Shown piece by piece: positions 44,286 through 57,607 of a stretch of 59,658 bases of DNA. This DNA comes from an uncultured Candidatus Saccharibacteria bacterium (GTDB taxonomy: Bacteria; Patescibacteriota; Saccharimonadia; Saccharimonadales; Saccharimonadaceae), in contig CAMYZS010000008.1 in NCBI GenBank assembly GCA_947303945.1, forward strand, positions 1 through 59,658. The letters run 5' to 3'. The number at the start of each line of letters is the position of its first letter. Position 1 is the stretch's first letter. Below the pieces are notes generated by a model, which worked only from the letters and a program-made list of their open reading frames with translations, was not told the DNA's origin and did not search any database. The position numbers and the translations under genes were made by a program.

Positions 44286-45329
44286 TTATTTATCGGGGTT
44301 TGCCAATTTGTAGTTGTCGCGACCAACTTTGGTAAATAATTTCTTGTTTTGGAGGTTTAGAAGGACGGTGGTTTCTTTGACTTTGCGTTCTTTGAGGACC
44401 CGCTTGACGATTTCCTTGCGCGAGAGCCCCTCTTCGTCGTTTGCCTTCTTGAGAATTTTGGTAATAATGTCGGAGACGGTTCCCTTTTGGTAGCCCCAAC
44501 TATCAAGCGCATAAATGCCGCGTCCAATTAAAACGAAACGAGAATCTTTAATAAGTTCATTGTGGATAGCTTGAACGGTGACATCTTTGCGTTTGAAGTC
44601 GGATGAGCCGATAGCTTTGGCGATGTCATTGAAATGCATTGGTTCTTTACGCTCTTCGAGTACAACGTAGATTTTGTCGCGGATATTCTTCGGATTGACG
44701 GTTGGCCACTTGGTGAGTCCCCATTGGCCGTTTAGGGTCGACAATAGTTTGCTAACATGGGCAATGGCTTCAATATGGCTAGGGTGTTCATAGTTGAGTT
44801 TTTCGTCCAGCTCTTCGATAGTGATAGGTTTTTTGTTGCTCTTAACTAGAGCAACAATCTCATCGACTTTGTTACGAATGGCTTTTTCGTCGCCATACTC
44901 GGCGATACCAATAGCGTTATGATACTTATCGTTTTCAGAGATGATGGTTAAGATGGGAGAGATTTCGCCTAGGAAACTAAAATTAGCCTTTTCGACAGAG
45001 TCGGCTTCGTGTCCAAGGATTTTTTGGGCGAGATCGGAAGCTCGAGCGATGCGACCCATTTCGGTAAGATTTCGGACAATTAACTTTTCGGCTGGGGCGA
45101 GCTCGCTAATTCTGCCCTCTTCGGCCGCAATACGGAGACGGATAAGAATTGCTTTTTCGAGTTGGCGAACGCGCTCGCGTGTGATAGACAACATCTCGCC
45201 GATTTGCTCGAGAGTTTCTTTGTGGCCACTGAGCCCGAATCGGCGGGAAATAATTTCCCTTTCACGTTCTTGTTCAATTATGCTGAGGCTACTGGAGATA
45301 GCCTTAGTAATGATATCCGCATTATTCAT
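44286..45329 (-). CDS. Sigma-70 region 4 / HARE-HTH transcription factor
   Basis: A 347-residue DNA-binding protein. The start resembles sigma-70 region 4 (REREIISRRFGL, LEQIGEMLSITRERVRQLEK), without regions 2 or 3. A middle domain similar to the C-terminal part of some CPR sigma-like proteins follows. A HARE-HTH domain of the RNA polymerase delta type lies around 215-285 (IRDKIYVVLEERKEPMHFND, IGRGIYALDSWGY), then a last winged-helix segment. It probably binds promoters or polymerase. A consensus promoter TTGACA/TATTGT precedes it. Confidence 0.82.
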   Translation of the reverse strand: MNNADIITKAISSSLSIIEQEREREIISRRFGLSGHKETLEQIGEMLSITRERVRQLEKAILIRLRIAAEEGRISELAPAEKLIVRNLTEMGRIARASDLAQKILGHEADSVEKANFSFLGEISPILTIISENDKYHNAIGIAEYGDEKAIRNKVDEIVALVKSNKKPITIEELDEKLNYEHPSHIEAIAHVSKLLSTLNGQWGLTKWPTVNPKNIRDKIYVVLEERKEPMHFNDIAKAIGSSDFKRKDVTVQAIHNELIKDSRFVLIGRGIYALDSWGYQKGTVSDIITKILKKANDEEGLSRKEIVKRVLKERKVKETTVLLNLQNKKLFTKVGRDNYKLANPDK

Positions 45330-45383
45330 GCTGACTGTTTCCTTTTTCTCCGTCTGTTTAGGTTAATATCTTATCTTTTAAAT

Positions 45384-45412
45384 ACAATAACATATACTAG
45401 TCATGTTGTCAA
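45384..45412 (-). promoter_or_regulatory. Promoter of the sigma4/HARE gene
   Basis: Minus strand TTGACA (45412-45407), a 17-bp spacer, TATTGT (45389-45384). The rest of 45413-45689 is A/T rich with no gene. Confidence 0.75.
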
Positions 45413-45689
45413 CAAGTAAATATTACTTTCACTTGGAAGCTATTATACTACATTTTTGACGAATATCCGAATAAAATACATAAGACTATAAGCATAAGTA
45501 GTATTATGATGCTAAAATTGTTTTATTTGATAATTCTGAGATGGGAGTATTGTAGGAAGTGCTAGATGGGGTGTAGATGTTGCTTAGTATATGGAACTGT
45601 GGTATAATATAGATGATTCATAGTTTTGACTAGCTCATTGACAATCTATTTTTGTGTTCTTTGAGTAACTTATCCAATGGGAGGGAAAA

Positions 45690-47549
45690 ATGGGAGTAAT
45701 AAATGAGTATAAAACTCAAAGATTTGATTACGAATCGCGGGCGCTAATCGTTAGCCAGTGTGATCCGAACGATGATGACTTCTGTAAGCTGATTAGTACT
45801 GCATTATTAGATTCGGATAAGGAGGTGAGGAACCAAGCGATTCGTAGGTATGAAGAATGTCCTTTGGAACTAAAGAAGAGAATTGTTCCGACGGAGATTT
45901 TACTTTCCTGGATTTGGGCTGTAAATATTGAACAGTGCGTTGTTGCGATTGACCTATTGATAGGGCGTGATGATATAGATATCCAGGAAATCAAGTCACT
46001 GTTTTTTATTGATGATTGCGAAGTTCGGGATCAAATAGTCTACTACTATCAGGAAATTAGCCTCGAAGAAAAAGAAAGGCTTTTCCCGGCGGACATTCTT
46101 AAGCAACATGTTAATAAACCATATGACGATGAAGATATTGAGGCGATGTGGATAAAAATATTCGTATCCTATTGTTCCGCTAAAGGCGATGAGATGGATG
46201 CGGATAGGGACAGTATTGTAAATGATTACATAAGCAATACGAATAACTTAGATTGCGCTCTGTCTTTATTGAAAAACTGTAGCATAAAGATTAGGCCTAA
46301 TATTGTAGAATCGTTACTTGATGTCTATGAGGACTCTGACGAATGTGGTGACGATGATGTGAGACGAAATATCGTTAAGATTATTCATGATAGCCTTGAT
46401 TATTCGTCCTTAGACGAGGATACAATTAAAGAGTGGCTGTTTAACTACTCTTCGTATAATTGTATTTTGACTGAAGTTATGATTCTACTGATGATTGAAG
46501 AAAAGATTCAGTATGATGAGGATATATTTAGGTCCGAACATCATTTCCTCTGGAGCTATATGTATAATACGTCGTATCAAATTCGCGATAATGATGAATT
46601 CGACGCCAAGAAACGCTTCAATGATGCGTATGAATTGTACAAGCGTTTATCTCTAGAGACGAAACAGGCTGTTGCTCCAGAAGGTGATTGCAAAAATTCT
46701 ATCGGTTATCGCGTCGACGAGAGTGATTATATCTATATGATTATTTATCTTTGTTATGGGCGCACTGATTTGTCTGACGGTACCATTAGGCGCGTTATTC
46801 ATTATATGGATAGATTCTTGGATACAAGATCTTGCGATGTGTTCCGAGAGTCGCTTAACTCAATATATTGTGGGCGCTTTTACGATAGCTTAAGTCGGGC
46901 TGACAATGAAGAGCGAAAGATAGCGAATGGGATTCGTGAAATTCGTCGCCTCATTGAGTTAGAGAATGATGTCCTCGAGGAGGGTGACGGCATAATGCGT
47001 TGCGGTCTTGAAGATACTCCGGCTAATACACAGAGAAATGTAATGAATGCTATATTTGTTGATACTAAGTTGTCTGATGATATGGTTATGAAAATAATTG
47101 ATGGGCTTGATGATATTGACGCTGGGGCTGTTATGCATTTGCCGCAGCTTGACGATCAGTATCGATTAAGCTATGCAATTAAGCTTGCCGCCAATCGGAA
47201 GTATGGAAAAGAGATGATTGCTATCCTGTCAAACCATGAGGAAAGCTGGTCTCAGCTTACGGATGATGTGTTGGCTGAAATGAGTGGAAACGATTACTGC
47301 TCTGAGGCTGCTCTTTTTGCGATCAACGTTAGTATGACTCAGGCGCGAGATGCCAGCTTCCGGAAGAAAATTTTGTTTAATGCAGTTTCAGGATCTCGTG
47401 ATGGCAATGTTGTAGTAGCTGCCGTTGAACGGGCGTATAATTGCGAAGATTTGAAAGTAGTGGTACTACCGGCATTGCAGTTAAGGCAGAGTCTGTTGGA
47501 TCCTGAATCTGCTAGGAGAGTACGTGATATTGTGGCGGCAAATCTTTGA
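45690..47549 (+). CDS. Large acidic helical-repeat protein, 619 aa
   Basis: The intact paralog of the amber-interrupted gene at 18543. The protein is very acidic and helical, with HEAT/ARM-like units that include CP.EL.K..V and LSLE-K (for example RRYEECPLELKKRIVPTEIL, YYQEISLEEKERLFPADIL). GGGAGGG lies 5-6 nt before ATG 45690. No catalytic motif is visible, so it is probably a protein-binding scaffold. It shares its downstream hairpin with the paralog, which shows that gene and terminator were duplicated together. Function unknown. Confidence 0.75.
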   Translation: MGVINEYKTQRFDYESRALIVSQCDPNDDDFCKLISTALLDSDKEVRNQAIRRYEECPLELKKRIVPTEILLSWIWAVNIEQCVVAIDLLIGRDDIDIQEIKSLFFIDDCEVRDQIVYYYQEISLEEKERLFPADILKQHVNKPYDDEDIEAMWIKIFVSYCSAKGDEMDADRDSIVNDYISNTNNLDCALSLLKNCSIKIRPNIVESLLDVYEDSDECGDDDVRRNIVKIIHDSLDYSSLDEDTIKEWLFNYSSYNCILTEVMILLMIEEKIQYDEDIFRSEHHFLWSYMYNTSYQIRDNDEFDAKKRFNDAYELYKRLSLETKQAVAPEGDCKNSIGYRVDESDYIYMIIYLCYGRTDLSDGTIRRVIHYMDRFLDTRSCDVFRESLNSIYCGRFYDSLSRADNEERKIANGIREIRRLIELENDVLEEGDGIMRCGLEDTPANTQRNVMNAIFVDTKLSDDMVMKIIDGLDDIDAGAVMHLPQLDDQYRLSYAIKLAANRKYGKEMIAILSNHEESWSQLTDDVLAEMSGNDYCSEAALFAINVSMTQARDASFRKKILFNAVSGSRDGNVVVAAVERAYNCEDLKVVVLPALQLRQSLLDPESARRVRDIVAANL

Positions 47550-47583
47550 TGCCGTTAGCGTTGCGATAGGAACACAATAATGA

Positions 47584-47644
47584 AAGCCAGCTCTTTTGCG
47601 AGCTGGCTTTTTTGTTACTCAAAACCCCCGGCTAGGCTGGGGGT
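47584..47644 (+). terminator. Terminator pair after the helical-repeat gene
   Basis: AAGCCAGCTC/GAGCTGGCTT (47584-47609) plus TTTTTTG is followed by ACCCCC/GGGGGT (47624-47644), which copies the hairpin at 20466-20487. Confidence 0.85.
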
Positions 47645-47667
47645 AATTATTAGCAAATAATTTAATG

Positions 47668-47696
47668 TAAAAAGCCAGTCCATTAGTGGACTGGCT
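47668..47696 (-). terminator. Terminator of conjugation cassette 1
   Basis: AGCCAGTCCA/TGGACTGGCT is followed on the minus strand by TTTTTAC. It lies 22 bp after the stop of the ubiquitin-like gene. Confidence 0.85.
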
Positions 47697-47718
47697 CGTG
47701 TTGAGAGGGGACAGGATA

Positions 47719-48321
47719 TCAACCGTTTACAGGGCGGTTTCCGATCGTGATCGTCACTCCGTCGGGCAGTACGTAATCGGGGCCAATATCGACTCCGTCT
47801 ACCATTGCGTGCCACCCTTCTTTCAGCGCGATATTAGCCTCCTTGAGGAGCGCGCCCCAGGTGGTTCCGATAGTAAATCTTATTTCCTGCGTCTGCTTGC
47901 TCGGTTTTACGATCTTAACGATTCCGGCCTTTGCCGCCGACTTCTTCCCTTTTTTGCGCGCTTTCTTCTTGCGTGCCTGCTGGGTTTCTGTTTCTGCGGC
48001 TGCTGCTTCCGGTGCCGTTACTTCTGTTTCTACTGCTGCTTCCGGTGCTTCAACTTCTGTTTCAACGGCTACTGCTGCTTCCGTTGCTTCAACTTCTGTT
48101 TCTGCGGCTGCTGCTTCCGGTGCCGTTACTTCTGTTTCTGCGACCGCTGCTGCTTCCGTTGTTCCAACTTCTGTTTCTACGGCTGCTGCTGCTTCCGTTG
48201 CTTCAACTTCTGTTTCTACGGCTGCTGTTGTTTCCGGTGTTCCAACTTCTGTTTCTGCGGCTGCTGCTGCTGCCGCTTCCGGTGTTCCGTCGACGTTGAC
48301 AACATTGTTGTTGTTTTCCAT
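47719..48321 (-). CDS. Ubiquitin-like modifier with acidic Ala/Glu repeat arm
   Basis: A 200-residue protein in two parts. Residues ~15-115 are seven tandem 11-13-residue repeats of the type ETEVEATEAAAAV, followed by a Lys-rich linker (QARKKKARKKGKKSAAKAG). The last ~60 residues form a beta-grasp domain (EIRFTIGTTWGALLKEANIA) that aligns with the small modifier at 54870 and ends in Asn-Gly, as required for E1 adenylation. ATG 48321 follows TTAGGAGGG; a start at 48342 would lie upstream of that site. It is the last gene of cassette 1 and also has its own promoter. The modifier role is inferred from fold, C-terminus and neighbours. Confidence 0.75.
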   Translation of the reverse strand: MENNNNVVNVDGTPEAAAAAAAETEVGTPETTAAVETEVEATEAAAAVETEVGTTEAAAVAETEVTAPEAAAAETEVEATEAAVAVETEVEAPEAAVETEVTAPEAAAAETETQQARKKKARKKGKKSAAKAGIVKIVKPSKQTQEIRFTIGTTWGALLKEANIALKEGWHAMVDGVDIGPDYVLPDGVTITIGNRPVNG

Positions 48322-48398
48322 ATTATCCCTCCTAAGGTACATGTGTTATTGCGCATTCGCAATAGTCAAAAAGCTTCTTCGTCTTCTCAGACTTTTTT

Positions 48399-48427
48399 AT
48401 TGTATGCTATAAAAAACTATTTGTCAA
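48399..48427 (-). promoter_or_regulatory. Internal promoter for the cassette 1 modifier
   Basis: Minus strand TTGACA (48427-48422), a 17-bp spacer, TACAAT (48404-48399). The -35 context CTATTGACAAATAG equals that of RNA unit B. It would let the modifier be made in excess over its enzymes. Confidence 0.75.
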
Positions 48428-48457
48428 TAGTTTTCTGACATATTTTTAAGAATTCGT

Positions 48458-49756
48458 TTATTCGTGCATTATTGGCTCGAATGGATCTTCTTCTTCAGGC
48501 TTAAAATATATAGTTTTTTCGATCCCCATATCTTGCAGGATTCTTTCGGGGCCATTATCGACATATCTTGCGACGATATAGCCAGCTATTGCTCCACTGA
48601 AGAAGGCGATGTACGGGATATTTCTGGCCCCACATACATCCTTGGTTGCTTCCGCATCGGAGTACATCCAGGTGTGCTCATAGATAGAGACGTCTTCCTT
48701 ATTATGTGGGTCCACTACTAAGAATGTCAGACTTTTGCCCGTTGATCTGAAATCGATATAAAGAGGAACTAATGGACTATTTTTGACTGCTGCCCATATT
48801 TTCTCTCTCGATTTCATACTGTCAACTCCAGATATTACGATGCCATCGAATTCCGCGGTTTCATCGATAAATACTTCGTGCGGAATAATACTATTATTAT
48901 CCGAGCGTAAATATTGTACGGTGTTGATTGCGGCTTCGATTTTGGGTTTGCCGATGTCTTTATCGCTATACATCGGTTCTCCGGCGCCGTTGTGTGACTT
49001 AGCATCGTAGACATGTATTTCCCTGACGCCCATTGTCGCGAGAACTGAGATTACAGTATTTGTCGCGCCACCTGCTCCCACAATATGTATTGGGGGGCAT
49101 TCATCAGGATTGAATAGTGTATCTATGCGGATAGTCTTTGCAATTTCGTCACTTTGCAGGATTCTTTCAGGGCCATTATCGACATATCTTGCGACAATAT
49201 AGCCAGCCATTGCCCCACTGAAGAAGGCGATGTATGAGTCATACGCGTCTTTGTTTGACTTGACGTCGGAGTGCAGCCAGGCATGTTCGTAGGTGTAGAC
49301 GTTATCATCGTTAGATGGGTCTACCACAATAGTTGTTAAACTATCGCCCGTTAATCTGAAATCGATATAAAGAGGAACTAATGGACTATTTTTGACTGCT
49401 GCCCATATTTTCTCTCTCGATTTCATACTGTCAACTCCAGATATTACGATGCCATCGAATTCCGCGGTTTCATCGATAAATACTTCGTGCGGAATAATAC
49501 TATTATTATCCGAGCGTAAATATTGTACGGTGTTGATTGCGGCTTCGATTTTGGGTTTGCCGATGTCTTTATCGCTATACATCGGTTCTCCGGCGCCGTT
49601 GTGTGACTTAGCATCGTAGACATGTATTTCCCTGACGCCCATTGTCGCGAGAACTGAGATTACAGTATTTGTCGCGCCACCTGCCCCCACAATATGTATT
49701 GGGGGGCATTCATCAGGATTGAATAGCTGTGTTTGATCCATTAAGTTAAAATACAT
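48458..49756 (-). CDS. Tandem-duplicated E1/ThiF-like activating enzyme
   Basis: A 432-residue protein made of two ThiF/E1 modules (about 10-205 and 213-420). Each has the nucleotide loop IHIVGAGGATNTVISVLATM, an Asp ending the next strand (VYDAKSHNGAG), DIGKPKIEAA and the ISGVDSMKSREKIW segment of E1 adenylation domains. E1 enzymes activate the C-terminus of a ubiquitin-like protein and normally dimerise, so the tandem form would be a covalent dimer like eukaryotic E1. The DNA shows a 609-bp period with near-identical N-terminal halves. AAGGAGGGG precedes the ATG. The catalytic Cys cannot be fixed by eye. Confidence 0.88.
   Translation of the reverse strand: MYFNLMDQTQLFNPDECPPIHIVGAGGATNTVISVLATMGVREIHVYDAKSHNGAGEPMYSDKDIGKPKIEAAINTVQYLRSDNNSIIPHEVFIDETAEFDGIVISGVDSMKSREKIWAAVKNSPLVPLYIDFRLTGDSLTTIVVDPSNDDNVYTYEHAWLHSDVKSNKDAYDSYIAFFSGAMAGYIVARYVDNGPERILQSDEIAKTIRIDTLFNPDECPPIHIVGAGGATNTVISVLATMGVREIHVYDAKSHNGAGEPMYSDKDIGKPKIEAAINTVQYLRSDNNSIIPHEVFIDETAEFDGIVISGVDSMKSREKIWAAVKNSPLVPLYIDFRSTGKSLTFLVVDPHNKEDVSIYEHTWMYSDAEATKDVCGARNIPYIAFFSGAIAGYIVARYVDNGPERILQDMGIEKTIYFKPEEEDPFEPIMHE
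48741..49113 (-). repeat. E1 module repeat, copy 2 (C-terminal module)
   Basis: About 373 bp matching 49350-49722 with only about two differences (at the outer edge and GCTCCC/GCCCCC). The remaining ~236 bp of each 609-bp unit are clearly diverged. Confidence 0.9.
49350..49722 (-). repeat. E1 module repeat, copy 1 (N-terminal module)
   Basis: Near-identical partner of 48741-49113, offset by exactly 609 bp (203 codons), so the duplication keeps the frame. Confidence 0.9.
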
Positions 49757-49768
49757 AATAACCCCTCC

Positions 49769-50716
49769 TTATATTGAATTATCTACAGGACGCAAACAAG
49801 ATCCATCATCATTTGACGAGTTGGGTTCCGTGGTGATAGTAGTATCGTCGCTATCGTTTGATGGGCCGAGTTTCGGGATAATGCTGATACTATCGCCGTC
49901 ATTGCTCGATGGGCTGAATCCTGGGGTAGTATCAAAGTCATTGTCGTATATAGAGTTGAGTTCTGGAGAAACATCGTCGCAGTAGTCGAGGTCGAAATCG
50001 GCTTCGGTTAAAACTCTTCTAAGATTTGGATTATAAACCGGATATCCTCCATAGCCATAGTAGTATGGACGGGTTGTGACTGGGTCGGCGGTGCGTTTAA
50101 TGTTAGCGAGTAGGCCTGAATACTTTTTTACGTACTCTTCTCCAAACTCGAGCTCAACGTCGACATTTGCCATTCCGACATGAATATTGTCTCCGCATGT
50201 TTCTACGAAGAAGTCGATTCTGGCCAACATCTTTCCGAAGTTGTTCATGACAATGTTAATTCTATAGGGGCCTAACCAGTCTTCTATGTCGTTAATGTCC
50301 GTTTGTGACCAGAATGCGTCCATATTAGCATGACTATGGCCATGAAGACTGAGGAATTCCATTTCATCTTCCGTTGCGATGTTGCAGGTTAGAATGTCGT
50401 ATCTCACATTGTCTACCCTGGCTGTCTGAGGCGGAATAAATATTTTTCTTAAACGAAAAGTATTCTTTTCGCTCTGGTCGGCATCTATGATGCCCTCGAA
50501 TGCAAACTCGTACGGATGTACCTTCTGCCTAAGAAACAGCAGTATAGTATATATATCGATTGGTATTTTTAGTCTAAAATTTTGTGGTTTAAAACTATCT
50601 GAAGGGTTTACCTCTGACATTGTGAATTTGCTATCGACTGTTGACTTGCAATGATAGCCCTCTTCTTTCTTTTTGTTTGAATTGGGCTGGGAGTATGAGT
50701 GTGACATGGACTTCAT
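49769..50716 (-). CDS. JAB/JAMM metallopeptidase of cassette 1
   Basis: A 315-residue protein with a zinc isopeptidase domain at about 45-200. The catalytic Glu is in HPYEFAFEGII. The metal motif H-x-H-x7-S-x2-D is complete (HGHSHANMDAFWSQTD). A strand with INIVMNNFGKMLARIDFF follows. JAB enzymes remove ubiquitin-like proteins from targets or mature precursors. A disordered acidic tail repeats SNDxD/S-type units (SSNDGDSIS, SNDSDDTT, SSNDDGS). It starts 1 bp after the E2-like stop and ends 12 bp before the E1 gene. Because the modifier already ends in Gly, deconjugation is the likelier activity. Confidence 0.88.
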   Translation of the reverse strand: MKSMSHSYSQPNSNKKKEEGYHCKSTVDSKFTMSEVNPSDSFKPQNFRLKIPIDIYTILLFLRQKVHPYEFAFEGIIDADQSEKNTFRLRKIFIPPQTARVDNVRYDILTCNIATEDEMEFLSLHGHSHANMDAFWSQTDINDIEDWLGPYRINIVMNNFGKMLARIDFFVETCGDNIHVGMANVDVELEFGEEYVKKYSGLLANIKRTADPVTTRPYYYGYGGYPVYNPNLRRVLTEADFDLDYCDDVSPELNSIYDNDFDTTPGFSPSSNDGDSISIIPKLGPSNDSDDTTITTEPNSSNDDGSCLRPVDNSI

Positions 50717-50717
50717 A

Positions 50718-51575
50718 TTAAATGATTCCCCTTTCTTTTAAATATTTATCCAGTTCCTTAACTACATTTTCGTCGACCTCTAGTGCCGGAAAGCAATTTG
50801 GTATGTTTTCGCGATGCTCGGGGCCAACATAATTGAAGCAATCCACCATGTTTGCGAGCGCATCTGAATAGCGGCGTTCATTTACAAGCTTGTGGATAAT
50901 ATCATGAGAGAATCCGAAACAGAATTCCCAATGACTATAAGAGTAATTTGGATATTGGTGCCCCCAGTCTTTGTAGTGAGTTCTTCTGGTTCTTTGAGCA
51001 ATTCTATCGGAATTAAGGCCGAAATCGGGATTGAAATTAACTTCGACATCGCCGAAATCGTAAATCGTTTTATCACTATGTATGTAATAAATTCTAAATA
51101 GCAGTATGGGGTATCTTCTCCCCTCACTGCTTGTTCCGTACTGAATCGATCTAAGTCCCCTAAGACTGACGATCTGTTTCCAGTCGCGTTCGGGCTGCTG
51201 TTCTTGAGTCATACCAATTTCATTAAAATCGCTCAGAATCCTTATCTCATTCTTGCAACGCGCATATCTTTTTTGTGCTTCGGCAATATTAGCTCGGATT
51301 CTTTGACGCTCATTTTTGTCATTGGTTCTCTCGAGTTCTTCACGGTAGCCAGTTATTTCGTCTTTGATTTTTTTAGCATCGCTATTTTTTTTCTTTATAG
51401 CTTCGCTTGGCGGAATCATGTTATAGAATGCCTTGATACATTCTTCCTTATTCTCTACAGTATCGATCTCAGCTCGTCCATACTCAACCAGAAATCGTGC
51501 AGCTTCGTCCAGAATTTGAGACGACGTTTGACGGTTTCGGCTTGTGACGTCATATAGGTATTCTTTCAATGACAT
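50718..51575 (-). CDS. E2/UBC-like conjugating protein, soluble form
   Basis: A 285-residue protein. A helical start and a Lys/Glu coiled coil (KKKNSDAKKIKDEITGYREE, about 58-120) precede a C-terminal domain (130-285) that matches the last part of the protein at 56339: W-K-x-I...RG...I, IYDFGDVEVNFNPDF, then HWEFCFGFSHD. The FCFG Cys, placed after the strand pair and before two helices, is where prokaryotic E2-like proteins carry their active Cys. Gene order E2-JAB-E1-modifier supports this. AAAGGGGGA precedes the ATG. The E2 assignment is from pattern and context, not from a search. Confidence 0.7.
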   Translation of the reverse strand: MSLKEYLYDVTSRNRQTSSQILDEAARFLVEYGRAEIDTVENKEECIKAFYNMIPPSEAIKKKNSDAKKIKDEITGYREELERTNDKNERQRIRANIAEAQKRYARCKNEIRILSDFNEIGMTQEQQPERDWKQIVSLRGLRSIQYGTSSEGRRYPILLFRIYYIHSDKTIYDFGDVEVNFNPDFGLNSDRIAQRTRRTHYKDWGHQYPNYSYSHWEFCFGFSHDIIHKLVNERRYSDALANMVDCFNYVGPEHRENIPNCFPALEVDENVVKELDKYLKERGII

Positions 51576-51613
51576 CCATTTAATCCCCCTTTCTTTGGAA
51601 TCGAAAAACTATT

Positions 51614-51685
51614 AAAAAACTGCGCACCAAAACATAAACATCGGTGTGCTGTTACTATAATATAATACTATCGTGCCGCAGTCAA
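51614..51685 (-). promoter_or_regulatory. Promoter and attenuator-like leader of cassette 1
   Basis: Minus strand TTGACT (51685-51680), a 17-bp spacer, TATTAT (51662-51657). The leader then forms GCACACC/GGTGCGC (51649-51622), followed by AGTTTTTT, a terminator located ~45 bp before the first gene. Expression of the cassette would depend on read-through of this hairpin. Confidence 0.65.
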
Positions 51686-51790
51686 TAGCCGAATCGAGTT
51701 GGTAGAGTGCTATTATTACTTGTGGCTTTTTAGATGTGTATTGTTTGATGGTGGAGTGGCGCGTCTTCTTGGGTGGATGAATGAGTAAGC

Positions 51791-51819
51791 TTGCTATTCG
51801 TGCGTTTTTGTAGTATAAT
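51791..51819 (+). promoter_or_regulatory. Promoter of the 189-aa gene
   Basis: TTGCTA (51791-51796), a 17-bp spacer, TATAAT (51814-51819). Confidence 0.75.
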
Positions 51820-51850
51820 CGTTGCAACTATAAACAAAGGGAGTTTAAAT

Positions 51851-52420
51851 ATGAGTATTATGACGGCTTTCTCCGCTTTGAGGAGAAGAATGACTGCTCA
51901 AAAGGTGAGCTACTTCTTTGAGGCTATTTCTTCTGGTCAGGGGGATGATTCTGTGGTGGCGACGCTAGTTTATTCAATTAATGGCCATCCTGTCGGTAGA
52001 ACCGTCTTGAGAGCAGCGAATGGTGTGCCGATTTCGGCGGATCGGTTTGACAAGTGGCAAGATGGAATTGTTGATTTGGCCGAAATGGGTTTTTGTCGTC
52101 TTTACGAGGAACTGGATGGAAGACTTGTTCTTGATAATAACCTTTCGATGACGCCGCCTAAAAACACAAATAGCTACCTAGTAAATCTGGAGTTGGGCGT
52201 TGTATTAGGTGAATTATACGGTTCGAAGTGGCGAAATAATGTTTATCATGTTGCATATACTAAGTGTGGCCCGATTTATGACCAGTATAGTGGTAGTCAT
52301 CTTCGAAAACGTTATTATGTCGGCGATTTAGTGATGCCGATAAAGGCTAAGTATCAAGTACGCCACGAGGCGGCAAGGCTACTTGCCGTTCGCTCAGCTA
52401 TGAATGCGGCTATGGTATAG
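51851..52420 (+). CDS. Hypothetical protein, 189 aa
   Basis: A basic alpha/beta protein (MSIMTAFSALRRRMTAQKVS; RYYVGDLVMPIKAKYQVRHE). GGGAG lies about 9 nt before ATG 51851 and a good promoter precedes it. The central VYHVAYTKCGPIYDQYSGSH contains a single Cys. No family recognised. It is divergent from cassette 1 and convergent with topA. Being beside the cassette it could be a substrate or regulator, but there is no direct evidence. Confidence 0.65.
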   Translation: MSIMTAFSALRRRMTAQKVSYFFEAISSGQGDDSVVATLVYSINGHPVGRTVLRAANGVPISADRFDKWQDGIVDLAEMGFCRLYEELDGRLVLDNNLSMTPPKNTNSYLVNLELGVVLGELYGSKWRNNVYHVAYTKCGPIYDQYSGSHLRKRYYVGDLVMPIKAKYQVRHEAARLLAVRSAMNAAMV

Positions 52421-52462
52421 TTGATATTTTGTAGCGGATAGAGCTGCATTATTTGTGTGGCT

Positions 52463-54736
52463 CTATTTTTTGTTAGTCTTTTTGGTAGATGTTCGACGTT
52501 TGACTGGGCGGCGAGTTTTCTTCGGCTTATTGGTGAGATATTCTTCGGCTTGCTCTTTTGTGACGGTCTTAGGGTCAACATCTTTGGGGATTCGAACAAA
52601 GTTGCGGCGACCTGGCCCTTTAATATATGGGCCGTAAGCGCCTTCGATGATTTGAATCTCACCCCAGTCAGCAATGAAGGAATCGCGTTTTTTCTCGTAG
52701 AGCGGTTCAGCTTCTTCTAGGGTAATAGTATAGGGGTCAAATTCTTTGCCGAGCGGAATATTATACTTGCCACCTTTGAGATATGGGCCAAATGGGCCTG
52801 CGGCGGCGATAATTTCGGCGCCATCTTTGGCTTTACCGAGAGTGCGCGGAAGTTGTGGCAAATCTAGTTGCTTGAGTGCTTGTTCGAGCGTGACGGTCTT
52901 GACGCTCTTGCGTTTTGGCAATGGTGCAAAGCGTGGTTTCTCGCCAGTTTCTTTTTCGTTTTCGCCGAGTTGAATAAAACCGCCATTTTTACCAACTTTA
53001 GCATAGATAGCCTTGCCAGTTTTAGGATCGTGGCCAAGCAAACGAGCGTTATTATAGCGTTCTATCCCCTCGCTAGCAAGAACATCGCTATTGAATGGGC
53101 CATAGAAGTCACGTAGCATTTTGACGCGATCGAGCTTGGCATCGGCAATTAAGTCGAGGTCTTTCTCGATATTAGCTGTAAATTTGTAGTCGACGATGTT
53201 TTTGAAATTATCGACAAGGAAGGCGGAAATTAGCTCGCCGATTGGGGTTGGTAGAAGCTTCCCTTTATTAGCGCCATATTTTTCTTTGACTGTTTCTTTG
53301 GAGATTTTATTATCTTCCAATTTGAGTTCGATAACTTCGCGTTCTTCACCTTCCGACTCCCCTTTTACGATATAGCCACGTGCTTGGATGGCGGTCATAA
53401 TACTGGCGTATGTGCTTGGGCGGCCAATGCCGAGTTCCTCGAGTTTTTTAACAAGAGAGCCCTCAGTATAGCGCGCTTGTGGTTTCGCAAAGGTTTGGTG
53501 CGCAATGATCGATTTTGCGTCAAGTTTATCGCCTACTTTTAGGTGCGGTAATTCGTTTTCTTTAATTCGGCCGTAAACTTTAAGGAAGCCGTCGAAGGTA
53601 ACAATCTCGCCTTTGCCAACGAAATTATACTCAGTTGGAGTGGTGATAGTGATAGTGGTGGTTTCGATGCGTGCGTCTGCCATTTGCGTGGCAAGAGCGC
53701 GCCCGCGGATTAGGGCGTATAGGCGTTTTTCGTAATCATTTTTGCCGGCGGTCTCGCGGTTGATGTCGGTTGGGCGAATTGCTTCGTGTGCCTCTTGGGC
53801 GCCAGCTGACTTGGTCTTAAAGTTTCGGACTTTGACGTATTCTTTGCCGTAAGTGGATTCGACATAGCTAGCCATGTTGGCGATTGCTTGTTTGCTCAGA
53901 TTTAGACTATCGGTGCGGTGGTAAGTGATAAAGCCAGCTTGATAGAGCGCCTGTGCGGCTTGCATAATCGTACGCGTAGAATAGCCAAGTTTAGAGTTAG
54001 CCTCGATTTGCATAGAAGCGGTGGTAAAAGGCGGAGATGGCTTGCGTGTTCCTGGGGTGTTCTCGACGGCGCTAGCTTTAAAACTGGTGTTTATAAGCCG
54101 CTCAAGGAATTTGCGTGCCTCGTCTTCGGTTTCGAAGTCATGATTAAGTTTGGCGTCAAAGCCGAAATCGCCAGATACCTTGTAGCTGAATTTGCTAGCA
54201 AACTTCTCGATAGCCTGTTCACGCTCAACGATAAGGCGGATAGCTGGACTTTGGACGCGGCCGGCCGAGACGGCGCCTGGGACTTTTTTGCGGACGATGC
54301 CAGAAAGGTCGAAGCCGACAAGCATATCGAGAGTTTGGCGAGCTTGTTGCGAAGCTACCATATTCATATCGATGATGCGTGGGTTCTTGATTGCTTCTTC
54401 GAGTGCGGTTTTAGTGATTTCGTGAAAAGTAATACGGGCGGTATCTTTTGGTAGCTTTAGTACTTCGCAAAGGTGCCAAGAGATGGCTTCTCCCTCGCGA
54501 TCTTCATCCGTTGCGAGCCAGATTTTATCGGCGGTTTTGGCGGCTTTTTTAAGATTGGTAATAATACTCTTGTGTCCAGGGTCAATTTCGTAAGTAACTT
54601 CAAAAGTATTCTTATCGACCTTCGTATCTTTGCGAATATGTCCAACTGATGCCAAAACGGTATAATCATTACCGAGGTATTTCTCGATAGTATGGGCTTT
54701 CGCCGGAGACTCTACGATAACTAAGTTTTTACTCAT
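52463..54736 (-). CDS. topA: DNA topoisomerase I
   Basis: A 757-residue type IA topoisomerase that relaxes negative supercoils. The TOPRIM start is LVIVESPAKAHTIEKYL, with the acidic triad WLATDEDREGE, and the catalytic Tyr is in GFITYHRTDS. SAGRVQSPA and RPSTYASIM are also typical. The C-terminus has repeated short Topo C-like domains (AAGPFGPYLKGGKYNIPLG; EGAYGPYIKGPGRRNF) instead of zinc fingers, and a Lys/Thr-rich tail. ATG 54736 lies 7 nt after TATTAT, a leaderless arrangement. It separates the two conjugation cassettes and is transcribed in the same direction. Confidence 0.97.
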   Translation of the reverse strand: MSKNLVIVESPAKAHTIEKYLGNDYTVLASVGHIRKDTKVDKNTFEVTYEIDPGHKSIITNLKKAAKTADKIWLATDEDREGEAISWHLCEVLKLPKDTARITFHEITKTALEEAIKNPRIIDMNMVASQQARQTLDMLVGFDLSGIVRKKVPGAVSAGRVQSPAIRLIVEREQAIEKFASKFSYKVSGDFGFDAKLNHDFETEDEARKFLERLINTSFKASAVENTPGTRKPSPPFTTASMQIEANSKLGYSTRTIMQAAQALYQAGFITYHRTDSLNLSKQAIANMASYVESTYGKEYVKVRNFKTKSAGAQEAHEAIRPTDINRETAGKNDYEKRLYALIRGRALATQMADARIETTTITITTPTEYNFVGKGEIVTFDGFLKVYGRIKENELPHLKVGDKLDAKSIIAHQTFAKPQARYTEGSLVKKLEELGIGRPSTYASIMTAIQARGYIVKGESEGEEREVIELKLEDNKISKETVKEKYGANKGKLLPTPIGELISAFLVDNFKNIVDYKFTANIEKDLDLIADAKLDRVKMLRDFYGPFNSDVLASEGIERYNNARLLGHDPKTGKAIYAKVGKNGGFIQLGENEKETGEKPRFAPLPKRKSVKTVTLEQALKQLDLPQLPRTLGKAKDGAEIIAAAGPFGPYLKGGKYNIPLGKEFDPYTITLEEAEPLYEKKRDSFIADWGEIQIIEGAYGPYIKGPGRRNFVRIPKDVDPKTVTKEQAEEYLTNKPKKTRRPVKRRTSTKKTNKK

Positions 54737-54869: not shown

Positions 54870-55097
54870 TTATCCATTAGATAGCCGTGGGGCTATGATA
54901 ATGAGATTGCCGGGTTCGACCGTGTCCTTGTCGGGGTCGATAATTCTTGTTCCCCCCCTGGAAAGCGAGTAGCCCGGTTCGATTGTGATATTCTCGCGTG
55001 CGAGTACTGAAGAGATAGTTTCTCCTTTTTCGCACTTTGCTATAATCGGTGCCGTGCCGATGCCAGTGATGATTCTGATTGTATCAGTGTTATTCAT
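54870..55097 (-). CDS. Small ubiquitin-like (beta-grasp) modifier
   Basis: A 75-residue protein (DTIRIITGIGTAPIIAKCEK) with the strand-strand-helix-strand-strand pattern of ThiS/MoaD/ubiquitin-like folds. GETISSVLARENITIEPGYS aligns with GTTWGALLKEANIALKEGWH of the cassette 1 modifier. Both end in [Val/Ser]-Asn-Gly, so the C-terminal Gly is exposed without processing. AAGGAGGG lies 5 nt before the ATG. It is the last gene of cassette 2, 10 bp after the E1 gene. Conjugation or sulfur carriage are both possible from the fold. E2 and JAB partners favour conjugation. Confidence 0.8.
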   Translation of the reverse strand: MNNTDTIRIITGIGTAPIIAKCEKGETISSVLARENITIEPGYSLSRGGTRIIDPDKDTVEPGNLIIIAPRLSNG

Positions 55098-55107
55098 TAC
55101 GCCCTCC

Positions 55108-55782
55108 TTACATTACAACAACTCTTTCGAGTGTGGCTAAGTTATCCGAGATCATAAAGGGTACAGGTTCGCCCTTGATAGATTTCGTTAAGTTTCTTGT
55201 CACTAACGATGCGATACTATTGGAGGTATATGCAACATTACCTCCGCACTCGAGCCGGAGAGAGTCTTCGTCATCGAACAACCAACTTTCATAGTTACTC
55301 GCAGCTCTTGGGTCGAATGGTCGAAAGCTGAAAATTTGGTACATTTCTCCTCCCGATCGCGCATCGATAAATAATGGTATTTTTGTACTTGACGCTTTCA
55401 CGGCGTCAAAGATAGCTTTGCGACTCCTCATTGAGTCGACGCCGCAAATTACATACCCTTCGAGTTGAGTTTTTTCAGTCGCGCGCTCGAAGTGTGGAAT
55501 TGCCGTGGTAGATTTCATCTCGCTACCCAGGAGATATTCTATCATTTTTGTAGCCGCTTCGACCTTCGGTAGACCGACGTATTTTTCGCTGTAGGGTGGC
55601 TCAGATGCAATATTTCGCTCTTCGAGTTTGTCATTATCCCAAATTATTATTTTAGGAAAACCCATCTTGGCGAGCGTTTGTATGACAGTACTGCCAATGC
55701 CGCCCGCGCCGATGACGTGTACGGCATCACCAAGTTGATTTGGATTAAAGAAATGAAGTTGATCTGATAAATCTCTTGCCAT
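55108..55782 (-). CDS. E1/ThiF-like activating enzyme of cassette 2
   Basis: A 224-residue single-module E1-like protein with VHVIGAGGIGSTVIQTLAKM (ATP loop), the Asp of IIIWDNDKLEERNIASEPPY, GLPKVEAATKMIEYL and VICGVDSMRSRKAIF. The segment LRLECGGNVAYTSNSIASL contains a Cys at the position where many bacterial E1-like enzymes have a conserved or catalytic Cys. It would adenylate the modifier encoded next. It overlaps the JAB stop as TAATG. It is shorter than canonical MoeB and lacks an extra catalytic-Cys domain. Confidence 0.9.
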   Translation of the reverse strand: MARDLSDQLHFFNPNQLGDAVHVIGAGGIGSTVIQTLAKMGFPKIIIWDNDKLEERNIASEPPYSEKYVGLPKVEAATKMIEYLLGSEMKSTTAIPHFERATEKTQLEGYVICGVDSMRSRKAIFDAVKASSTKIPLFIDARSGGEMYQIFSFRPFDPRAASNYESWLFDDEDSLRLECGGNVAYTSNSIASLVTRNLTKSIKGEPVPFMISDNLATLERVVVM

Positions 55783-56342
55783 TACTGCCGTCCTCCTTTG
55801 AGCTTTATCCCAAAGAGCGTGCCTTTTGTCTTCCCATCGGCTTTCCCATCGGCTCTTTTTATGTTGGCAAGTTGCCGTGTAGCTTGCGTTGTGTCTGTGT
55901 CGGTATAGTCGACGAATATGTCTACCGGGTAGTTTGTTATCCTGATAGGATTAAATGCGTCGAAGCGGGCTATGCCCCCACCTTTGACATTAACGACCAG
56001 GTTTACGGCCCAGTCTGCCGAGTGGCTGGCGATGTCGTTCTCGTCGTGACTAGAAAAGAAGACTGAGCCTTCGGCATGGGAGTGCCAACGAAAACGCAGC
56101 TTTTCAGCGTTATTCTCATCTTCCGAGACTACATCAGCTATGATTTCATTCATGGCGTAGTCTTCGGTTGTTGCGTAGCTAAAACCGGCCGTCTGTCGCG
56201 GAAGGAATATCTTTTTGACATAAAATGTTTCCCTATCGTTGCCGACTTCGATGAGGCCGATGCCCGTAACTTCATATGGTGAAGCCAGCTGGGTAAGTGT
56301 CATTATTTCCTTCCATATCATATGCGGTATAATGAGTTTCAT
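55782..56342 (-). CDS. JAB/JAMM metallopeptidase of cassette 2
   Basis: A 186-residue minimal JAB protein. The catalytic Glu lies in SPYEVTGIGLIEV. The metal motif is RWHSHAEGSVFFSSHD (H-x-H-x7-S-x2-D, complete). The following WAVNLVVNVKGGGIARFDAF matches prokaryotic JAB proteins of modifier systems. It probably removes the modifier from targets. The ATG overlaps the stop of the membrane E2 gene as ATGA, and its own stop overlaps the E1 start, so the three proteins are made together. It lacks the acidic tail of its paralog at 49769. Confidence 0.92.
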   Translation of the reverse strand: MKLIIPHMIWKEIMTLTQLASPYEVTGIGLIEVGNDRETFYVKKIFLPRQTAGFSYATTEDYAMNEIIADVVSEDENNAEKLRFRWHSHAEGSVFFSSHDENDIASHSADWAVNLVVNVKGGGIARFDAFNPIRITNYPVDIFVDYTDTDTTQATRQLANIKRADGKADGKTKGTLFGIKLKGGRQ

Positions 56343-57607
56343 TTTTCACCTCTCTTCAGCAGTCTTGCTTTGGCTTTTTCGATTTCTTTAACTTCAATAT
56401 AGTGACATGGTACTGCCCACTCGCATCCTTCGTTTACGCCATGCATACTATCGATAGCTAAGATTATCGCTTCGGCATACTGTTTATTGGCTACGTAGTG
56501 ATCGATTGCGCATGCTCGATTGCCAAAACAGAATCTGTGGTCACTTTGTAGATAGAGTGCGTCATCGGTACTGGAGCGGATTGATACGCATTCGTAGAAG
56601 TTTGGCTCGAGACGGAGTTCATAGTCGCCGAAGTCATATTCTTTTCCGTCAAGCAAGTAGCGTACTCGAACTACTACGTACAGGCAGTCATTATCGATGT
56701 GAATACCTATTACTCCGCGCGAGTTGCGGATTGCCTTCCATTCGCTATGAAAATCGTGACGTTGTATAGAAGAAGATGCGGCCCTTTTCCGCTGCCTTAT
56801 TGATGCTAAGGCTCGATTCTTTCGTTCCTGCAGTTTTTCTATTTCCTTCATTAATTCGTCTAGCGACTCTTCAGGTATTAATCCTGTTGCCTTCGCTGTC
56901 TGAATCTCATTGAGCCTTTTGTCGCAATCTTCGATCTCTTTTTCTGCTTTAGCGATGCCATTTTCAGGCGAGAGCAGACGTTCGACGAGATTACGATAAT
57001 CTTGTTCTGAAGCTTGTGGTCGATTGCTTTCGGCATAGTCGATACGGAGTAATTCCTCGGCGCACATTTCTAATTTTTTTCTTCTAGTGTATGCTTCGAA
57101 CCCTTTTCTAATCAAGAGGATAGGCCAAGCAATAAACATGCTAGTTAATAGAAACAGGCCATAGGGCTTACTGATTGGGATGTCTGTCCACAGATATTCC
57201 TTTTCTCGTCTTCTAATTATACTATAGCTGATTGTAACTATGAATGAGTAGAAGAGTAGCAATGTGGCCCTTAACCAGTCTTGCTGTTTAGCGAGTTCCT
57301 CCCGAAAGCTAATCGTTTCTTTTTCCTCTTCTAGTGGAAACATGAGGTTTTCGTCTAGCTTATCCTGGTTCTCTTGGTCCATGTAATGCTGAATTAAAGC
57401 TCGATCTTCGTCGCTAAGGTCATTAAACTCACTCGCGAATTCATTATAGGTCGCGATTTTCTTAGCTTCTGAATTGTCATGAGCCCAGATAGCCCAGATG
57501 AATGCCAAAAGAATGAGTCCCACTACGATAGTAATGAAAAAACAGTTGCGTAGTATGTGTGCATCCTTGAGGTCGTCGCAATAGCCTCGGCGTTTTTTGG
57601 GTGTCAT
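56339..57607 (-). CDS. Membrane-anchored E2/UBC-like protein
   Basis: A 422-residue protein. Three hydrophobic helices (about 17-37, 115-134 and 150-168) are followed by a long coiled coil (185-275, KEIEDCDKRLNEIQTAKATG) and a C-terminal domain homologous to the soluble E2-like protein: W-K-x-I..RG, EYDFGDYELRLEPNF, DHRFCFGNRACAIDHYV, then two helices. The shared FCFG Cys is the candidate active site. The topology puts the E2 domain in the cytosol next to the membrane, so conjugation may target envelope proteins. AAAGGTGG precedes the ATG. It is the first gene of cassette 2. The E2 call is inferred from homology between cassettes and from context. Confidence 0.7.
   Translation of the reverse strand: MTPKKRRGYCDDLKDAHILRNCFFITIVVGLILLAFIWAIWAHDNSEAKKIATYNEFASEFNDLSDEDRALIQHYMDQENQDKLDENLMFPLEEEKETISFREELAKQQDWLRATLLLFYSFIVTISYSIIRRREKEYLWTDIPISKPYGLFLLTSMFIAWPILLIRKGFEAYTRRKKLEMCAEELLRIDYAESNRPQASEQDYRNLVERLLSPENGIAKAEKEIEDCDKRLNEIQTAKATGLIPEESLDELMKEIEKLQERKNRALASIRQRKRAASSSIQRHDFHSEWKAIRNSRGVIGIHIDNDCLYVVVRVRYLLDGKEYDFGDYELRLEPNFYECVSIRSSTDDALYLQSDHRFCFGNRACAIDHYVANKQYAEAIILAIDSMHGVNEGCEWAVPCHYIEVKEIEKAKARLLKRGEK

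Follow-up and report, generated by a model that had tools for sequence, protein, structure and literature searches.

A probable, recently fused E1 with two unequal ThiF modules in a Ubl cassette of a Saccharibacterial genome

Within the DNA analysed here (59,658 nt from an uncultured Candidatus Saccharibacteria bacterium, hereafter the window), we identified an E1 gene that probably encodes a recently formed, covalently fused E1, working as a ThiF-type dimer within one chain and possessing a single complete catalytic centre. The best reading of the available evidence is that of a nascent fused E1, in which module 1 represents the IAD-like partner and module 2 the AAD-like catalytic half. A more far-reaching interpretation, to which we assign somewhat less than an even chance, would see in this gene a recent replay of the origin of asymmetric fused E1s: the self-fusion, within one genus, of a homodimeric ThiF-type E1 from a Ubl operon, with concerted evolution keeping the ATP-binding halves identical and complementary losses leaving one composite active site.

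Gene architecture

The gene belongs to the first of two Ubl cassettes in the window (Table 1). The original prediction, which placed two in-frame ThiF modules in one E1 gene, was borne out by the single 432-aa reading frame and by the Pfam assignment (PF00899, ThiF: E 9.2e-20; the whole protein scores 71 bits, the cut-off being 28), which is made up of two stretches falling in both modules. These data support an in-frame fusion of two ThiF/E1 modules. Antisense genes were considered as a source of constraint and rejected: the plus-strand ORFs of 75 aa simply mirror the repeat and do not amount to evidence of genes.

Table 1. Positions of the tandem E1, its parts and the neighbouring cassette genes within the window.
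Feature	Position	Strand	Basis or remarks
Tandem E1 gene, 432 aa, two ThiF modules, single frame	48458..49756	(-)	ORF, ATG start; Pfam ThiF
Module 1 (residues 1-213), IAD-like half	49118..49756	(-)	DQ segment at N-terminus kept; without conserved Cys motif
Module 2 (residues 214-432), AAD-like half	48458..49117	(-)	Cys375 kept; without N-terminal DQ/RQ segment
Homogenised N-half block, module 1 copy, 373 bp	49354..49726	(-)	gene nt 31-403
Homogenised N-half block, module 2 copy, 373 bp	48745..49117	(-)	gene nt 640-1012
12-bp deletion site, module 1	49232..49249	(-)	residues 170-175 (DAYDSY); Cys motif removed
Cys375 of module 2	48632..48634	(-)	aligned with ThiF C184 and MoeB C187
D7-Q8 of module 1	49733..49738	(-)	aligned with MoeB R14-Q15
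Ubl of cassette 1	47719..48342	(-)	ORF; N-terminal part rich in repeats, C-terminal part resembling a Ubl, with NG at its end
JAB/JAMM-like protease of cassette 1	49769..50716	(-)	GHSHANMDAFWSQTD keeps metal-site pattern
Coiled coil and putative E2-like domain	50718..51575	(-)	invariant Cys (residue 219)
Cassette 2 (comparison cassette)	54870..57607	(-)	Ubl 54870-55097; single-module E1 55108-55782; JAB 55782-56342; E2-like 56339-57607

Mosaic of identical and diverged halves

The alignment of the gene with itself (offset 609) revealed that the N-half blocks differ at 1 of 373 bp (gene nt 72, synonymous), that the longest exact repeat between the modules measures 331 bp, and that the identity tract begins exactly at the duplication junction (the preceding 30 bp match at 6/30). 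The near-identity of these blocks had been anticipated, with about two differences instead of the one found, and so had a 609-bp period, which holds across the N-half and for ~100 bp beyond, after which the register becomes 621, 12 bp having been lost from module 1. The predicted divergence of the remaining part of the modules was likewise recovered: the C-halves share 62% aa identity, differ at 68/237 aligned sites (about 29%) and are separated by a dS of 0.96 and a dN of 0.256 (Nei-Gojobori), as compared to a dS of 0.012 and a dN of 0 for the N-halves. A contrast of this size between the N- and C-halves lies well outside what chance would produce (Fisher P = 7e-30 when all sites are counted, 1e-13 when only synonymous ones are).

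When the same N-half is compared with that of G039 (a genome of the same genus), synonymous sites are found to be saturated (pS about 0.79). Because these sites are identical between the two copies but saturated with respect to G039, the N-half identity must stem from recent homogenisation and not from constraint, and an explanation by strong purifying selection is rejected. Of the two explanations offered originally (recent gene conversion or strong constraint), only the first is thus retained, and in a broader form: the data support a recent homogenisation of the N-halves, which may have proceeded by gene conversion or by unequal crossover, gene conversion and repeated unequal crossover being indistinguishable from the present data. 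The C-halves are still under constraint (dN/dS about 0.27).

Active-site parts kept and lost

Reference residues were taken from E. coli MoeB and ThiF, whose sequences were obtained by translating the K-12 record and were aligned to both modules. The residues at MoeB G41, D62, N70, K86 and D130 are all kept in both modules, and R73 (MoeB numbering) is missing throughout this E1 family. The Cys at the ThiF C184/MoeB C187 position is present in module 2 and in every complete single-module relative aligned, and is missing from module 1 only, where the 12-bp deletion removed the motif that close relatives carry as CGARN. In ThiF-type dimers, the segment at MoeB R14-Q15 is supplied in trans. Within this family the motif reads RQ in Methylomirabilota (and some others) and DQ in most Saccharibacteria, the Arg finger position being Asp in most Saccharibacterial members; the R14 position is present in module 1 and most relatives, and absent from module 2, from which the junction removed it.

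From the positions kept and lost in each module it would therefore follow that one composite site is complete (module 1 segment, module 2 pocket and module 2 Cys), the second composite site probably lacking two parts, namely the Cys and the partner segment. Module 1 has no Cys and no trans segment from module 2, yet it keeps most of the ATP-site residues. Judged by these residues, the fusion appears to be lopsided, with complementary losses in its two halves, rather than a symmetric covalent dimer; this inequality of the halves was not part of the original prediction.

Moreover, the two modules have in common a 3-residue deletion beside the ATP pocket (near D48 and D251; DAKSHN versus DKDVLEDHN in G039), which was not found in the other relatives aligned and which takes out an Asp and an adjoining Glu that are otherwise invariant in close relatives; because of this loss of invariant residues, which is the chief ground for doubting activity, module 2 may itself be weak. 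Module 1 evolves faster than module 2 (16 versus 2 unique residue changes, P = 0.001; branch lengths in the C-half tree of 0.60 for M1 and 0.002 for M2).

Predicted structure

The AlphaFold2 model of the whole chain (pTM 0.81, mean pLDDT 80) was built from an input of 23 rows, in which the relatives were aligned to module 2 only. Model residues 6-420 match UBA1/UBA6/UBA7 as a single unit (Z 24-29, rmsd 2.8-3.2 Å, 376-396 residues), with one UBA7 entry matching at a lower Z of 21, and the model aligns across both modules to the bacterial E1 of PDB 8tz0/8tyz (Z 26, 336 residues; 'bacterial E1-E2-Ubl complex', which we take to contain BilD). The original suggestion that a predicted structure be inspected for a ThiF dimer interface is answered favourably, within the model, by these one-piece matches; they support a chain that is predicted to form one intramolecular ThiF-type pseudodimer, a support to be read with caution because fused E1 structures were part of the AlphaFold2 training. 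Where the structural alignments start with model residue 6 on UBA1 residue 56, D7 falls on human UBA1 Arg57, a placement read from the ends of the aligned ranges. In UBA1, Arg57 stabilises the position of the pyrophosphate, and the same contact exists in MoeB (PMC12355090).

Origin of the tandem gene

The closest named relatives are Candidatus Saccharibacteria, as befits a Saccharibacteria-type genome. This E1 was detected in 4 of 45 genomes of the genus and in 25 of 394 of the family, and two modules were seen in none of the other genus and family matches (the L022 match ends at a contig end). When 393 genomes of the order were searched with an alignment, no second tandem match emerged; the weaker matches there sit in longer ORFs. 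A single-sequence scan of contigs returned no match, and an alignment-based scan returned 25 relatives, with no tandem among the matches listed. G039 harbours the same cassette at the corresponding site, flanked by a sigma-factor-like gene and topA, and the E1 of that cassette is a single module of 226 aa. A tree of the C-halves groups M1 with M2 to the exclusion of G039 (bootstrap 96). From this tree, together with the syntenic single-module E1, the most likely course of events is an in-frame duplication of a single-module gene after the split from G039, followed by faster change in module 1. The alignment with homologues in related genomes, proposed at the outset as a check, pointed in the same direction: G039 and the other close relatives are single-module, hence the support for a fusion derived from a single-module ancestor.

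Cassettes and genomic setting

Cassette 1 is composed of intact genes in the order E2-like/JAB/E1/Ubl, a four-gene order that recurs in several Saccharibacteria, and an E2-like/E1/Ubl order is found in Methylomirabilota. The last 74 aa of its Ubl align with the Ubl of G039 (42%). The Ubl gene additionally carries about six 36-39-bp repeats (47984-48289), which encode an ETEV/Ala-rich N-terminal stretch; because these repeats occur besides the tandem E1, two genes of cassette 1 display internal duplication. The JAB of this cassette matches Pfam Prok-JAB weakly (E 0.035) and PRTRC_A with E 4e-4, whereas that of cassette 2 passes the Pfam cut-off. The E2-like protein has its invariant Cys and a UBC-like order of elements; PDB fold matches were weak and none was significant. 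A fold search was discarded as a means of establishing E2 identity, the match list being filled by the coiled coil and the UBC matches staying weak.

The slot between the sigma-factor-like gene and topA (44286-54736) has a variable content across the genus: G030 has a single small ORF there, G010 has ABC-transporter-like genes, G036 encodes a large membrane protein, and the source genome and G039 carry a large protein plus the Ubl cassette. This large protein (619 aa, 45690-47549, beside cassette 1) has no Pfam match, is possibly HEAT-like, and is only 33% identical to its G039 counterpart versus 93% for topA; it may be a partner or a target of the cassette. Cassette 2 flanks topA on the other side, and its order and position match G018 and G019. 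Identity between the source genome and G039 amounts to 93% for TopA, 64-66% for E1, 59% for JAB, 43% for the E2-like protein and 42% for Ubl, and the cassette thus evolves fast, in a variable slot. Such fast evolution would suit a role in conflict, which is a guess on our part; no known defence system was matched, PADLOC giving weak E1-E2 and JAB matches only.

The same E1 family is also found outside Saccharibacteria (L054, L055, L057, L058, L060 and L061), where the Arg of the RQ motif is kept and where, in some of the loci, the Ubls end in GG plus a short tail (KIRGGCA, KIKGGR). These loci offer a better-conserved version for biochemistry.

Proposed mechanism and rival explanations

The sequence shows an in-frame tandem duplication of a single-module E1 gene, in which copy 1 shed its stop and C-terminal tail and copy 2 roughly its first ten residues, and a later homogenisation of the N-halves (by gene conversion or unequal crossover); the conserved Cys motif was lost from module 1, and the N-terminal DQ segment is missing from module 2. 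In the mechanism that we propose, the chain would fold as a pseudodimer, with the N-terminal segment of module 1 lent to the ATP pocket of module 2, which would adenylate the C-terminal glycine of the cassette Ubl. The Ubl would then be taken onto Cys375 and passed to the neighbouring E2-like protein, and the JAB protease may process or remove it. Module 1 keeps an ATP pocket but has neither the Cys nor a partner segment, and would therefore serve chiefly a structural purpose, as does the inactive adenylation domain (IAD) in eukaryotic E1.

The tandem could instead be a neutral accident, in which module 2 (if working at all) dimerises between chains and module 1 is a passenger that is losing its active site. 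We regard this decay as unlikely, even though it would accommodate the faster change of module 1 (with several invariant residues lost), the loop deletion near the ATP pocket common to both modules and the occurrence of the tandem in one genome only, since the ORF is open through both modules, the C-half dN/dS is about 0.27 (a rough split of dN yields a module 1 ratio below 1), non-synonymous differences between the N-halves are zero, the neighbouring genes are intact, and the losses are complementary instead of random. The absence of the Cys at ThiF C184 in module 1, and of an N-terminal segment that module 2 could lend, also makes it improbable that both modules adenylate (perhaps the two Ubls of cassettes 1 and 2), with the fusion merely raising the local concentration of E1 units and pairing still taking place between chains. 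The identical ATP-binding halves and the retention of all five MoeB positions (G41, D62, N70, K86, D130) in both modules would be in line with two active sites, but cassette 2 has its own single-module E1.

As the source genome is a draft (45 contigs, 1.29 Mb) and the exact 331-bp repeat may exceed single short reads, the tandem might also be an assembly artefact present in no real cell, produced by the mis-joining of a repeat or of two strain alleles. We consider this highly improbable: the two modules meet in a unique sequence that provides no overlap usable by an assembler (6/30 match upstream), the frame is open across this junction, the difference between the C-halves (about 29%, 68/237 sites) is a lot for strains of one species, no second, single-module allele of this gene was found elsewhere in the same genome, and completeness and contamination are estimated at 99.9% and 0.7%. 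The novel junction and the lack of a second allele, in particular, argue against an artefact. The two modules may be what is left of a collapsed array of more than two units.

The fusion is so young that its single-module orthologue is still present at the equivalent locus in another species of the genus. The derivation of the asymmetric two-domain E1 (of eukaryotes and BilD) from a symmetric MoeB/ThiF homodimer has so far been inferred only from ancient end products; here, the individual steps can be spelled out: the modules fused, the N-terminal half lost its Cys and the C-terminal half its trans element, while the ATP-binding halves are still interchangeable. Single changes in either half could reveal which of the losses produce an IAD and which of them an AAD.

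Comparison with known E1 systems

The open-access literature yielded nothing relevant on tandem ThiF or Patescibacterial Ubl systems. Among single-module homodimers of the MoeB/ThiF/UBA5 type, the tandem E1 finds its counterpart in fold, ATP-site residues and Cys position, and its nearest relatives are single-module, but it is fused and its halves are unequal; the curated NCBIfam cut-offs for MoeB and ThiF proper were not reached (ThiF 65/275 bits, MoeB 22/377 bits). Operon type 6d/PRTRC comprises separate Ubl, JAB, E1 and E2-like genes (PMC1779556, Iyer et al. 2006), as does cassette 1, and on plasmids module 2 matched one protein only, the ThiF of a PRTRC system (28% identity). PRTRC membership was nonetheless rejected, as the NCBIfam scores remained below the cut-offs (ThiF 48/145 bits, PRTRC_A 20/102 bits), and, in a further difference, no ParB-like gene was seen in either cassette.

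With UBA1/UBA6/UBA7 the tandem E1 shares the predicted IAD-AAD arrangement, the trans element being located in the N-terminal half and the catalytic parts in the C-terminal one. Unlike these enzymes, it is devoid of FCCH, SCCH and UFD domains, its module 1 keeps most ATP-site residues, and the Arg finger position is occupied by Asp.

In BilD, a single chain forms a pseudodimer of an inactive N-terminal and an active C-terminal adenylation domain, with a Cys-domain insertion, and the BilABCD operon places Ubl, E2 and JAB beside it (PMC11354881). The tandem E1 resembles BilD in having two adenylation modules per chain (as a predicted pseudodimer) and an operon with Ubl, E2-like and JAB genes, and its mode of action is predicted to be similar. 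It differs in that the roughly 80-aa inserted Cys domain of BilD has no room in its 432 aa, its Cys being at the ThiF position: module 2 measures 219 aa and has no insertion relative to single-module relatives, and hence no inserted Cys domain of the kind found in fused E1s. It differs, furthermore, in that its halves are still identical over 373 bp and its relatives are single-module. The originally postulated 'independent route' to a fused E1 is therefore upheld as regards a separate, recent fusion and not as the first of its kind, BilD being already known in bacteria. Taken together, the tandem E1 is a fusion separate from BilD and much younger, situated inside a single-module family, and, as fused IAD-AAD E1s are already known in bacteria, it is a new variant and not a new kind.
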